NCBI GenBank assembly: GCA_902522465.1
Contig: CABYVV010000001.1
Span: 180,229-244,228 of the forward strand
Direction of reading: 5' to 3'
Source: an uncultured Alphaproteobacteria bacterium
GTDB lineage: Bacteria; Pseudomonadota; Alphaproteobacteria; Methylaequorales; Methylaequoraceae
Length of the DNA: 64,000 nt
This document shows positions 57,474 to 62,689 of this stretch, in pieces. The translations under genes and the position numbers were made by a program. How positions within the stretch are numbered: the stretch's first letter is position 1; every line of letters starts with the position of its first letter. The notes below the pieces were generated by a model. It ran no database searches, was not told where the DNA came from, and saw nothing but the letters and a program-made list of their open reading frames with translations.

Positions 57474-58733
57474 ATGTTTATTCATAAAGACTTAATTATC
57501 GTATTTTCTTTCATTTTTGTGCTGCTCTTAATTATGTTTGTTCTCATATTTAGAGATTTAAAAAGCATCAGTAAATCTCTGCAAAATTTCAAAGGAAAAC
57601 CGATCGAATCAGATAAAGTTTTTTTCTTTAATCTTTTCCAACCAATAATTTTTAATATTAATTTAGTCATAAACACCCTAAACGAGAAATCAAAATTCTC
57701 GAGATTAAGAGTATTTTTTTATGATTATTTCTTTAAATTTTTTCCTGACCCTCTTCTTATTATTGACCAAAACAACATCATTATTGAAATGAATGAACAA
57801 GCAATTAATTTTTTTGGAGAAGATTCAAAACAAAAAAATATTTTTTCAACAATTAGAATACCAGAGCTAAGCTCGCTTATCGACAAATCTGTAAAACAAA
57901 AGAAACCTGTTGAGAGAGAATTGAATTTAATTTATCCAAAAGAAAAAATCTTTAATGTTTGGGTTTCGGGTCGAAGAGATTTGGGTAAAAATAAATTAAA
58001 TTTTATTAGACTATTTGATACGACATCTCAGCATAATGTCCAAAATATTCAGAGAGATTTTATTGCAAATGCAAGTCACGAGTTAAAAACTCCAATTGCC
58101 TCAATCGTTGGATATTGTGAAATCTTATTAAACGAACCTCCCAAAACAAAATCAAAAAAAGAAGATTTTATTAAAACTATGTTTAATGAAGCAAGCCGAA
58201 TGTCATCTTTAGTTAAAGATCTCCTATCTCTTACACGTATTGAGAGGATTGAATATATCCCCCCTGAAGGCAAAGTTAATCTTAACGAAATTTTGAAAAA
58301 CATTCGACAAATATGTAATGAAAGAAAGTTTTTGAGCAAAACTAAGTATAATTTTTCAATTCCTAAAAGAAAAACTGAAATAATTGGTGATGAAGCAGAA
58401 TTACACCAAGTTTTTTTTAATATCATAGAAAATGCAATAACGCACAGTCAATCTAAGAAAACTATACAAATAAAATTAATTACAAAACCTAATACAATAG
58501 TGTTTCTAGTACAAGATTTTGGCATCGGAATTTCAAATCAAAATATTCCAATGTTGACCAAAAGGTTCTATAGAATTGATACCTCAAGACCAAGAGATAC
58601 TGGTCACACTGGCCTTGGTCTCTCAATTGTTAAGCATATTTTAAACAGACATAATGCACAATTAAATATTCAATCCGAAGTTAACAAAGGTTCATCATTT
58701 TCTATAACGTTTGAAAAATACAAATCTTCTTAA
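57474..58733 (+). CDS. PhoR-like sensor histidine kinase
   Basis: N-terminal TM, PAS-like region, IQRDFIANASHELKTPIASIVGY, VFFNIIENAITHS, TGHTGLGLSIVKHIL. Confidence 0.87.
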   Translation: MFIHKDLIIVFSFIFVLLLIMFVLIFRDLKSISKSLQNFKGKPIESDKVFFFNLFQPIIFNINLVINTLNEKSKFSRLRVFFYDYFFKFFPDPLLIIDQNNIIIEMNEQAINFFGEDSKQKNIFSTIRIPELSSLIDKSVKQKKPVERELNLIYPKEKIFNVWVSGRRDLGKNKLNFIRLFDTTSQHNVQNIQRDFIANASHELKTPIASIVGYCEILLNEPPKTKSKKEDFIKTMFNEASRMSSLVKDLLSLTRIERIEYIPPEGKVNLNEILKNIRQICNERKFLSKTKYNFSIPKRKTEIIGDEAELHQVFFNIIENAITHSQSKKTIQIKLITKPNTIVFLVQDFGIGISNQNIPMLTKRFYRIDTSRPRDTGHTGLGLSIVKHILNRHNAQLNIQSEVNKGSSFSITFEKYKSS

Positions 58734-58887: not shown

Positions 58888-60348
58888 ATGAAAAAATTAT
58901 ACTCGGGTATTGCAATCATGGCTGTGAGCGGTCTGATTACAAACGCCAAGGCACAAGACGTTGGTGCACAGATCGATGCACTGCAAAACGAAATTCTAAA
59001 AATGAAACAAGAAATGAATAAAGGTGGCAAAGGCAAAGCTTACTTTGAAAAAGGTAAAGGTTTACGTGTCAAAAGCACTGACGGAAAATATATGTTCCAA
59101 ATTAAAGGTAGGATTATGTATGACATTGGTGGTATCCTTGACTACGATGGGACACTGGCGGATGGTTCTACTGGCACAATTACTGAAGGTGGTTTAGGCT
59201 CAGAATTCAGAAGACTCAGATTCACATTAAAAGGTGAAGTTGGAAATGGATGGGGATTTGCATTTCAACCAGACTTAGCTGATGGAGGAGATGACCTGGC
59301 CGACAGAACAGTTATTTTTAAAGACGCACTAATTTATAAAAAGATCAAAGGAGTTGGTAAGCTGACTTTTGGTAACCAAAAAGCAGCCGCAGGTTTGTAT
59401 GAAAATACAAGTTCCAACAACTTGATATTTATGGAAAGACCGATGCACAATGAAACTATGAATTTTGGACATAGAGCAGGTATTGGATACGATACTTCAG
59501 GTGCATTTGGCAAAAGATTCCATTTAAAAGCTACAGTTTTCCATGGGATGGAAAGTGCCATCGAACAAAATATTTCTGACGGGTCAAATGCTATAACAGG
59601 TACTGAGAAAAACAACGAATCCTACGGAGCCAGTGTTGCAACTCAATACCAAATCCTTAATGATAAGAAATATGAAAGTTTCTTCGGAACTGGTTTGTCT
59701 GCGTTAGTAGGATTTCACTTTGGATATTTAGATCTTAGCAATACAGATACTGATGTTGGGGGTGATAGAAACGCACTAGGTAGATATGACACTAATAGTT
59801 CCCGAGCTAACGGACTTCATACACTTGTTGATAAGCCAATCGATTTAGGTGATGAAAATAATCTCAAAAATCACCATTTTTTTGGACCACAGTATAGTTT
59901 TATTCTTGGACAATTTTTCTCTCAGGCTGAATATCAGGTTGGTAAATATGAATATTCCGCTCCTAATACAATTGGTGCGCAATTTGCCGAAGAAGATTTT
60001 GATTTTCATGGTGGTTCTATAAGCATAGCGTATGCTTTCGATGGGAAATTTAAGCACAGTGGTAAAAAAGGAGCATTAGGTGGCTTAAAATGCAAAAGAC
60101 ATTGCTTTATGCCTAAGTATCAGTACGAATTCATAGATCAAACAGATCATGATACAAACGCTACTGGAACCGGAAATAGAAATGGAGGTTCTGGTGAGGC
60201 TCATACATTCGGTTTTAATCACTATTTTAATTCAAATGTAAGGTTAATGGCAGAATATACATTCGGTGATTATGGTTCAGATAACTCAAATGCAATGAGA
60301 GAATCTGAAATGTCATCAATTCAAGCTAGACTACATCTGAAATACTAA
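58888..60348 (+). CDS. phosphate-selective porin O/P family outer-membrane protein
   Basis: Signal peptide, coiled-coil N-terminus, FQIKGRIMYDIGGI...FRRLRFTLKGEVGNGWGFAFQPDLA; GQFFSQAEYQVG; terminal aromatic beta-strand LHLKY. Confidence 0.9.
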   Translation: MKKLYSGIAIMAVSGLITNAKAQDVGAQIDALQNEILKMKQEMNKGGKGKAYFEKGKGLRVKSTDGKYMFQIKGRIMYDIGGILDYDGTLADGSTGTITEGGLGSEFRRLRFTLKGEVGNGWGFAFQPDLADGGDDLADRTVIFKDALIYKKIKGVGKLTFGNQKAAAGLYENTSSNNLIFMERPMHNETMNFGHRAGIGYDTSGAFGKRFHLKATVFHGMESAIEQNISDGSNAITGTEKNNESYGASVATQYQILNDKKYESFFGTGLSALVGFHFGYLDLSNTDTDVGGDRNALGRYDTNSSRANGLHTLVDKPIDLGDENNLKNHHFFGPQYSFILGQFFSQAEYQVGKYEYSAPNTIGAQFAEEDFDFHGGSISIAYAFDGKFKHSGKKGALGGLKCKRHCFMPKYQYEFIDQTDHDTNATGTGNRNGGSGEAHTFGFNHYFNSNVRLMAEYTFGDYGSDNSNAMRESEMSSIQARLHLKY

Positions 60349-60380
60349 GTTTTCCTTCCTTAGTAATCTCTAAAATTAAA

Positions 60381-60410
60381 AAGAGGCTTTATAAGCCTCT
60401 TTTTTTTTTG
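60381..60410 (+). terminator. Rho-independent terminator after the porin gene
   Basis: AAGAGGCTT-TAT-AAGCCTCTT perfect 9-bp stem followed by a T run. Confidence 0.92.
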
Positions 60411-60483
60411 TGTTGTATCATATTAGTAACGCTATATGTGGTGTTGTAATAATTTTGACACATTTATTTGATACATGATATGA

Positions 60484-61284
60484 ATGGATGGCGTATCCTT
60501 TAAACATAATCGTTACAGAACAATATGGATTTCAGATGTTCATCTAGGTACAAGCGGTTGCAAAGCAGAATTGCTTTTAGAGTTTCTTAAAGTTTCAAAG
60601 TCCGAAAAAATTTTTCTTGTAGGAGACATTATCGATGGATGGCGATTAAAGAAAAAATGGTATTGGCCACAAGCTCATAACGACGTTATCCAAAAATTAC
60701 TTAGAAAAGCTAGGAAAGGAGTAAAAGTTGTATTTATACCAGGTAACCATGATGAGGCTGCGCGCAAATATATTGGTGTGAATTTTGGAGATATAATAAT
60801 AAAAAAAGAAGCTTACCATACCACTCTCAAGGGTAAGAAATTATGGATCATTCATGGAGATCAATTTGATAGCGTTATTAGACATGCGCGCTGGCTCGCA
60901 TATGTTGGTGACAAGGGTTATGCTATGTTAATCCGCTTAAACAATCTATTTAATAATATTAGACAATTTTTAAAGCTACCTTACTGGTCATTATCAAAGT
61001 TTATTAAACAAAAGGTAAAAAAAGCTGTTTCATTTATTACTGCCTATGAATTAGTAATGACTAAGGAGGCAAAAAGAAGAGGGTTTGATGGCGTTGTTTG
61101 TGGACATATACACAAAGCAGAATTCAAATCAATTCATGATATAATATATTGTAATAGTGGTGATTGGGTAGAGTCTATGACCGCGATTGTAGAACATCTC
61201 GATGGTAATCTAGAGATTGTTGACTGGTCATCTAGAATTTCTCAAGAGCATTCAAGTCACTTTCAGCTCCCACAAAAAACTTAA
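60484..61284 (+). CDS. PlcP-like metallophosphoesterase (UDP-2,3-diacylglucosamine diphosphatase superfamily)
   Basis: TIWISDVHLGTSGCKAELLLEFL; FLVGDIIDGWRLKKKWYWPQAHNDVIQKLLRKARKGVKVVFIPGNHDE; IHGDQFD; VCGHIHKAEF; followed by a GT4 glycosyltransferase. Confidence 0.85.
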   Translation: MDGVSFKHNRYRTIWISDVHLGTSGCKAELLLEFLKVSKSEKIFLVGDIIDGWRLKKKWYWPQAHNDVIQKLLRKARKGVKVVFIPGNHDEAARKYIGVNFGDIIIKKEAYHTTLKGKKLWIIHGDQFDSVIRHARWLAYVGDKGYAMLIRLNNLFNNIRQFLKLPYWSLSKFIKQKVKKAVSFITAYELVMTKEAKRRGFDGVVCGHIHKAEFKSIHDIIYCNSGDWVESMTAIVEHLDGNLEIVDWSSRISQEHSSHFQLPQKT

Positions 61285-61294
61285 TTTCCTTGTT

Positions 61295-62689
61295 ATGAAA
61301 ATAGTAATTATCTCAGATGCCTGGCACCCTCAAGTTAATGGCGTGGTCCATACGTTATCTAAAACAAAAGAACTTTTAGAAAAAAAAGGTCATAATGTTT
61401 TAATGATAACACCTAATCTGTTTAAAACATTTCCTTGTCCTACTTACCCTGAAATCCGATTATCTTTTTTTCCAGGGAACAAAGTTAAAAAGTTAATTAA
61501 AGAATTCAATCCAGATGCGATTCATATTGCAACTGAGGGTCCTCTCGGTATAGCAGGAAGGAATTATGTGGTAAAAAATGGACTTGTTTATACAACTTCA
61601 TTTCATACAAAATTTGCGGAATATATATATAAGAGAACTAAAATTCCTCTTTTTATAAGTTATGGTTATCTAAAATGGTTTCATAGTAAAGCACATAAAA
61701 TACTTGTTCCTACAAAATCAGTAATAGAAGATTTAAAAAAGTGGAATATACATAATACTACAATATGGCCACGAGGTGTTGATTTTAAGCTTTTCAAACC
61801 CCCTTTGCAAAAAAAGAAAAATGACAAACCGATATTGATAAACATAGGAAGAGTTGCTATTGAAAAAAACTTAGAAGCATTTTTAAAATTAGATCTCAAC
61901 TGTGAGAAATGGATTGTAGGTGATGGTCCAGATAGACGCAAACTCGAAAAAAAATATACAAATGTCAAATTTTTTGGTGAAAAAAAACAGCATGAATTAC
62001 ATGAATACTACGGAAAAGCAGATTTATTCGTTTTTCCAAGCAAAACCGATACTTTCGGACTAGTATTGCTAGAAGCTATGGCGTGTGGACTACCAGTAGC
62101 AGCATTTCCAGTTGCAGGGCCAATTAATGTTATTGGAAAAAGTGGCGCAGGGGTTCTAAATAAAAATCTTAAAATCGCGTGTTTAAATGCATTAAAAATA
62201 CCCGCCAGCAAACCTTTACATTATGTAAAAAAATTCACCTGGGAGAATGTTGTCAATATCTTTGAATCTAATCTACAAAATTCAAAAAAAAGGGATCCTA
62301 AAACATATGTCTTTAAAGAAAATCCACATAAAAAGAATACTGGGTTGAAGAGATTATATTTTGCTTTAATAAATAGTCTCTCAGGATTTATATTTGCTTT
62401 TAAAGAGGAGAGTGCTTTCAGACAAGAACTACTTCTCACTTTGATATTAATCCCTCTTGCTTTTATATTTCCAACCGAGACTACAGAAAAACTTCTCATG
62501 ATTGGAAGTATTATGCTTTTACTCATAATTGAATTACTTAATTCAAGCATTGAAGCCACTATTGACAGAATTTCTTTTTCACATCACGACCTTTCAAAAA
62601 GAGCCAAAGATTTAGGCAGTGCCGCTGTTCTTTGTTCACTTGCTTTTGTGTTTGTTACATATGTGTCAATATTGAAGAGATTTTTTTAG
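61295..62689 (+). CDS. GT4-family glycosyltransferase (Agt-like) fused to C-terminal DgkA-type diacylglycerol kinase domain
   Basis: MKIVIISDAWHPQVNGVVHTL...FVFPSKTDTFGLVLLEAMACGLPVAAF, then in the same frame EESAFRQE...ELLNSSIEATIDRISFSHHDLSKRAKDLGSAAVL. Confidence 0.9.
   Translation: MKIVIISDAWHPQVNGVVHTLSKTKELLEKKGHNVLMITPNLFKTFPCPTYPEIRLSFFPGNKVKKLIKEFNPDAIHIATEGPLGIAGRNYVVKNGLVYTTSFHTKFAEYIYKRTKIPLFISYGYLKWFHSKAHKILVPTKSVIEDLKKWNIHNTTIWPRGVDFKLFKPPLQKKKNDKPILINIGRVAIEKNLEAFLKLDLNCEKWIVGDGPDRRKLEKKYTNVKFFGEKKQHELHEYYGKADLFVFPSKTDTFGLVLLEAMACGLPVAAFPVAGPINVIGKSGAGVLNKNLKIACLNALKIPASKPLHYVKKFTWENVVNIFESNLQNSKKRDPKTYVFKENPHKKNTGLKRLYFALINSLSGFIFAFKEESAFRQELLLTLILIPLAFIFPTETTEKLLMIGSIMLLLIIELLNSSIEATIDRISFSHHDLSKRAKDLGSAAVLCSLAFVFVTYVSILKRFF

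Follow-up and report, generated by a model that had tools for sequence, protein, structure and literature searches.

A predicted Agt-type glycosyltransferase (GT) and a complete DgkA-type diacylglycerol kinase are encoded in one reading frame directly downstream of a PlcP-type gene, in an operon preceded by a Pho-box-like site. We read this locus as a PhoR–PhoB-controlled lipid-remodeling cassette, in which the fusion protein would act as a bifunctional diacylglycerol (DAG) enzyme with the kinase as an overflow clamp; judging from the sequences, we put the probability of this reading at about two in three. The architecture of the fusion, its recurrence, the conservation of its active-site residues, the selection on both halves, the operon, the Pho-box-like sites and the co-occurrence of dgkA with plcP and agt were all observed in the present analysis. 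No mention of a GT–DgkA fusion, or of DgkA in the PlcP–Agt pathway, was found in the literature, covered mainly through the accessible portions of open-access papers, and we provisionally consider the fusion undescribed.

Organization of the locus

The locus lies in a 64-kb window, by which we mean the whole stretch of DNA that was analyzed (Table 1). As originally predicted, the fusion gene starts 10 nt after the stop codon of the PlcP-like gene. A hairpin resembling an intrinsic terminator separates plcP from the porin gene, so that plcP is probably transcribed from its own promoter. No Rfam match was found in the window.

Table 1. Features of the operon and its upstream neighbors, with positions in the window.
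Feature	Position	Strand	Basis
phoR-like phosphate-regulon sensor kinase	57474..58733	+	Best model TIGR02966, 281 bits, below the cut-off of 334
Pho-box-like direct repeat 5' of porin, TTGTCATAAAGTTGTAACAAAA	58826..58847	+	Top-scoring site of the window (both strands); exact pattern match
Phosphate-selective porin O/P	58888..60348	+	PF07396, 1.7e-30; start taken as the ATG after AGAGGGA
Intrinsic-terminator-like hairpin between porin and plcP	60378..60404	+	
Pho-box-like direct repeat 5' of plcP, TTGTAATAATTTTGACACATTT	60444..60465	+	Second-best site of the window; similar site in most relatives
plcP, PlcP-type metallophosphoesterase, 266 aa	60484..61284	+	PF00149, 3.4e-13; far under the LpxH cut-off; presence tracks dgkA
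agt-dgkA fusion gene, 464 aa	61295..62689	+	Continuous ORF; Pfam; genomes of relatives
GT4 domain, putative Agt/GTcp type, residues 1–328	61295..62278	+	Motifs; H104, D252, E260; GT-B model, pLDDT mostly >85
Linker, residues 329–347, ending in NPHKK	62279..62335	+	NPHK/NPYK motif also begins unfused dgkA genes
DgkA domain, residues 348–464	62336..62686	+	Pfam; alignment to E. coli DgkA

Downstream of the operon, on the minus strand, there is a gene of the formaldehyde-activating-enzyme family (Fae; PF08714, 62776–63324), which fits a methylotroph. The Fae gene lies between dgkA and the pst cluster in genome G016, and adjoins the operon in G025. AG-892-F10, a single-cell genome of the window's family, is identified as the methylotroph Methylaequor ceniphilum, of the order TMED127, in a paper that also places pstS among the few transcripts exceeding 10^4 TPM in Sargasso surface water (PMC12542740).

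Domains and active sites of the fusion protein

A Pfam search of the 464-aa ORF placed Glyco_transf_4 at residues 14–164 (6e-20), Glycos_transf_1 at residues 173–290 (5e-23) and DAGK_prokar (PF01219) at residues 360–460 (6.3e-30), the last covering positions 2–102 of the 102 in the model and scoring 103.5 bits where the cut-off is 22.3. Both domains that had been predicted in this uninterrupted frame, a GT4 glycosyltransferase and a complete DgkA, were thereby confirmed. The closest solved relative of the C-terminal half is E. coli DgkA, whose structures (3ZE3, 2KDC) aligned without gaps to residues 347–460 (≈1e-21), or at 1e-22 when the C-terminal part was searched alone, and the context of the locus would supply DAG, the putative substrate in preference to another lipid such as undecaprenol. 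The catalytic residues, which the original prediction had described as retained, proved to be invariant: across the 20 fused proteins that were examined, there is no variation at the positions aligned to R9, E28, Q33, E69, N72, E76, D80, H87, K94, D95 and S98 (DgkA numbering), which include the catalytic E28, E69, N72, E76, K94 and D95. The fusion thus shares the alignment and catalytic residues with E. coli DgkA, but differs from it by the N-terminal 347 residues of GT and linker and by its placement in a separate, well-supported clade. It contains the only DgkA detected in the window's genome, which is 86.8% complete. Pairwise dN/dS was about 0.1 in both halves (for G000 and G024, 0.037/0.36 in the GT and 0.034/0.36 in DgkA), showing that purifying selection acts on both.

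The GT half contains the motifs GRVAIEKN (residues 185–192) and FPSKTDTFG (residues 247–255), both found in all 20 fused proteins with S tolerated for the A of GRVA, and a His–Asp dyad, H104 and D252, that is invariant in the same 20 proteins and in which Asp replaces the usual Glu. In the structure model, this half forms a confident GT-B fold with MshA and BshA as the nearest matches and PimA lower in the list, while in the DgkA half four helices are predicted, with low confidence (pLDDT of about 45), at the places expected for an amphipathic helix and three membrane helices. GTcp of Pelagibacter is a biochemically proven DAG glycosyltransferase, and its group is defined by GRVAxEKN, FPSxTDTFG and the His–Asp dyad (PMC8231724). 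By this published signature, the GT half is a predicted Agt/GTcp-type DAG glycosyltransferase. Agt enzymes of other species are reported to make MGlc-DAG and GlcA-DAG from PlcP-derived DAG (PMC4796936, PMC8528852, PMC3972451).

The fusion makes topological sense. In E. coli DgkA, the N-terminus is on the cytoplasmic side and catalysis takes place at the cytoplasmic face of the membrane, the same face at which GT4 enzymes and PlcP work.

Identity of the phosphoesterase

The phosphoesterase is calcineurin-like and fits PlcP rather than an enzyme of lipid A synthesis. It scored 40 bits against the LpxH model, 150 bits short of the cut-off of 190. None of the 32 genomes in the window's family passed this equivalog cut-off, LpxI was found in 28 of them, and the phosphoesterase gene is missing from half of the family. 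LpxH, the competing identity named in the original prediction, was therefore rejected: the cut-off is missed, the family uses LpxI, and the gene is dispensable. A PlcP homologue was found directly upstream of the GT in most of the 80 relatives compared.

Eight SAR116 genomes (genus g289) carry a more divergent plcP, with about 54% identity; at the two loci examined (L219 and L220), it stands alone without adjacent agt or dgkA.

Recurrence of the fusion and co-occurrence of its partners

The GT4–DgkA architecture, whose spread the original prediction had left to be surveyed, is present as an intact in-frame fusion in 13 of the 32 genomes of the TMED127/Methylaequorales family. Elsewhere in this family, the locus is broken by a contig end in G003, and in G019 and G030 the GT ends at a TAA that is followed 4 nt later by the ATG of dgkA in another frame. 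Across the class, DgkA was found in 56 of 386 genomes, and other DgkA-containing frames longer than 400 aa occurred only in family f109, which is the SAR116 family. Here, DgkA was detected in 15 of 61 genomes and is part of an intact fusion in 13, two of which are complete single-contig chromosomes, including one identified as that of Candidatus Puniceispirillum marinum IMCC1322 (2,753,527 bp); in G452, the DgkA-bearing locus is broken by a contig end. Restriction of the fusion to one genus or family is ruled out by this second family.

In G463 (SAR116), a single in-frame TAA interrupts the DgkA half (L186, 4976–4978) while the rest of the fusion is intact; this may be an error in sequencing, or the kinase may truly have been lost. 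Long-frame DgkA matches in G663, G652 and G811 from a phylum-wide survey had no glycosyltransferase match, and the fusion was not found in plasmid or phage records, where every match spanned less than 80% of the query.

The presence of plcP closely follows that of dgkA. Of the 32 genomes in the TMED127 family, 16 have PlcP, 16 have DgkA and 15 have both (Fisher 4e-7, without correction for relatedness), and among SAR116, 14 of the 15 genomes with DgkA also have PlcP. The operon is absent from half of the genomes in the window's family. The SAR116 genome G468 has plcP-agt without dgkA, and most of the rhizobial plcP-agt loci examined have no dgkA nearby; the kinase is therefore not required for remodeling in general.

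In G016 of the TMED127 family, which has neither plcP nor agt, an intact stand-alone dgkA (L188, 6067–6471, minus strand) sits in a Pho cluster. This suggests that the kinase may be useful by itself under phosphate stress, or that the gene may be a recent relic.

Phosphate regulation

We scored a direct repeat with an 11-nt period on both strands of the window. The two best sites lie upstream of the porin gene and plcP, although the repeat pattern had been relaxed after inspection of the window's own promoters, which makes this ranking partly circular. In most relatives from TMED127 and SAR116, plcP is likewise preceded by a similar site; 3 of 14 plcP upstream regions had no clear site. The SAR116 sites, such as CTGTCATAATAATGTCACA in G331, closely resemble the classic box and had no part in setting the repeat. 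The canonical E. coli Pho box had no match in the window with up to three mismatches.

Relatives in both families have phoR, pst or phoB genes next to the locus. The order in G016 is phoR-like, porin, dgkA, fae (opposite strand), pstSCAB and phoU; in the SAR116 genomes, the fusion adjoins phoR, pstS and pstC in G410, and in G331 plcP is preceded by pstB, phoU and phoB. The Pho-box-like sites are suggestive of phosphate-starvation control of the operon.

Origin of the fusion

In a DgkA tree of 65 sequences and 117 columns, the plcP-agt-linked DgkAs of TMED127, SAR116 and family f215 formed an exclusive clade with 100/98 support, outside of which lay E. coli DgkA and all other sampled DgkAs. Trees of concatenated PlcP and GT agreed with the DgkA tree, the GT trees being limited to plcP-adjacent homologues. 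Family f215 is betaproteobacterial, probably Burkholderiaceae. Its dgkA lies directly 3' of agt in at least 57 genomes. In at least 50 of these, dgkA follows the agt match at a distance of 60–444 nt; in another 7, one frame runs through both genes, broken between them by a single stop. These tandems have the gene order, the DgkA clade and the NPHK/NPYK start of the fusion, but are unfused. One such dgkA begins MLNAPYHIDQNPHKGNRG, matching NPHKKNTG in the fusion linker.

Since the DgkA clade includes unfused plcP-agt-dgkA tandems, the fusion likely arose by stop loss between neighboring genes: a plcP-agt-dgkA operon would have come first, and the stop between agt and dgkA would then have been lost once. 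G468, with plcP-agt and no dgkA, takes the basal position in the fused clade. The TMED127 sequences branch within SAR116, a placement that is not firm (91/79). The separate genes of G019 and G030 are likely the result of a later split.

In small-genome members of f215, dgkA continues the frame of agt beyond a single stop. In genus g404 (L202, 2500–2700, and relatives), where the two genes are likewise in frame, a lone TAA precedes the start codon of dgkA by a few nucleotides, leaving them one stop codon away from fusion.

Proposed function and alternative explanations

In the cassette that we propose, PhoR–PhoB would induce the operon when phosphate is scarce, and PlcP would cut phospholipids to DAG at the cytoplasmic face. 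The Agt-type GT4 half would convert DAG and UDP-sugar to monoglycosyl-DAG, while the DgkA half would use ATP to convert DAG to phosphatidate and would also anchor, and probably trimerize, the glycosyltransferase beside its substrate. As three activities behind one promoter imply, the kinase would be made during starvation and not after it. Its benefit is not obvious, because phosphate from ATP is spent in phosphate-sparing cells. The simplest reason for keeping it may be an overflow clamp, which would return surplus, unglycosylated DAG to the phospholipid pool, hold DAG low and preserve a minimum of acidic phospholipid. We infer both enzyme activities, induction by phosphate starvation in the host and the clamp role. 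More tentatively, and with odds somewhat against it, the distinct DgkA subfamily may be a dedicated third enzyme of the PlcP–Agt pathway in several proteobacterial lineages. The SAR116/TMED127 fusion would then hold glycolipid formation and the return of DAG to phospholipid at a fixed stoichiometry, possibly with phosphatidate feedback, and would represent a built-in set-point for phosphate-sparing membrane remodeling.

The original prediction had allowed for a frameshift or assembly error, and separate ORFs in G019 and G030 and the stop inside DgkA in G463 could be taken that way, but the probability of an artifact is practically nil: the gene is in frame in 26 assemblies from two families, including a single-contig chromosome, and this recurrence rules an artifact out. 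A DgkA half that serves chiefly to anchor the GT in the membrane and to scaffold its trimerization, with only incidental kinase activity, is unlikely. A kinase does spend phosphate, and Agt-type enzymes work elsewhere without DgkA (PMC8231724), anchoring being a plausible extra; however, the active-site residues of DgkA are invariant, its dN/dS is no different from that of the GT, and members of this DgkA clade also occur as separate tandem genes that could not anchor a GT.

An attractive but improbable variant has phosphatidate from the DgkA half serving as a local activator of the GT half, so that substrate is turned into effector. The plant DAG glycosyltransferase MGD1 is reported to be allosterically activated by phosphatidate (PMC5809773), and the fusion would localize such an effect, but MGD1 belongs to a different GT family, no phosphatidate sensitivity of Agt/GTcp was found in the literature, and unfused plcP-agt systems function without DgkA. 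The original prediction raised the possibility of a switch, which would toggle between phosphate-sparing glycosylation and re-phosphorylation once phosphate returns. The physical link between two DAG-consuming activities that compete within one protein holds, but the switch itself is very unlikely. It would need opposite regulation of the halves, and nothing of the kind was found, neither a regulatory domain nor a second promoter being evident; instead, a single operon with one Pho-box-like site upstream holds plcP, agt and dgkA, implying that both fates of DAG are induced together under starvation. Any partitioning between these fates would then have to be kinetic.

Comparison with known systems

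The PlcP–Agt (GTcp) systems of Pelagibacter, Agrobacterium and Pseudomonas likewise have plcP followed by an Agt-type GT4, and share GRVAxEKN, FPSxTDTFG, H104 and the DAG intermediate with the fusion locus (PMC4796936, PMC8231724, PMC8528852, PMC3972451). The Pseudomonas system has a Pho box, comparable to the Pho-box-like sites found here. As far as these papers were searched, they mention no DAG kinase, whereas the fusion locus has dgkA in the operon, fused to agt. The usual picture of bacterial remodeling when phosphate is short is one-way, with PlcP releasing DAG and Agt glycosylating it; the present locus adds a kinase that would return DAG. Two abundant ocean clades have this kinase fused to the GT, and a third lineage has it as a tandem gene. 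Control of DAG accumulation, and the stopping of remodeling before phospholipid is depleted, become directly testable. One of the genomes with the fusion is identified here as that of IMCC1322, which is in culture, and the proteins are expressible in E. coli.

The nearest published description is that of the phosphate genomic islands of HIMB59, which we compared by description only. Their gene list, too, combines a diacylglycerol kinase with an “LpxH” and an “RfaG” glycosyltransferase, alongside pst and phoBR, but these are listed as separate genes, the kinase and GT being described as “without direct P function”, and the paper does not link the three to remodeling (PMC10734472). A plcP-agt pair is also borne by Pseudomonas aeruginosa plasmids (NZ_CP137508.1, NZ_CP042268.1 and CP075839.1), with a GT that is 42% identical and a phosphoesterase that is annotated as UDP-2,3-diacylglucosamine diphosphatase.
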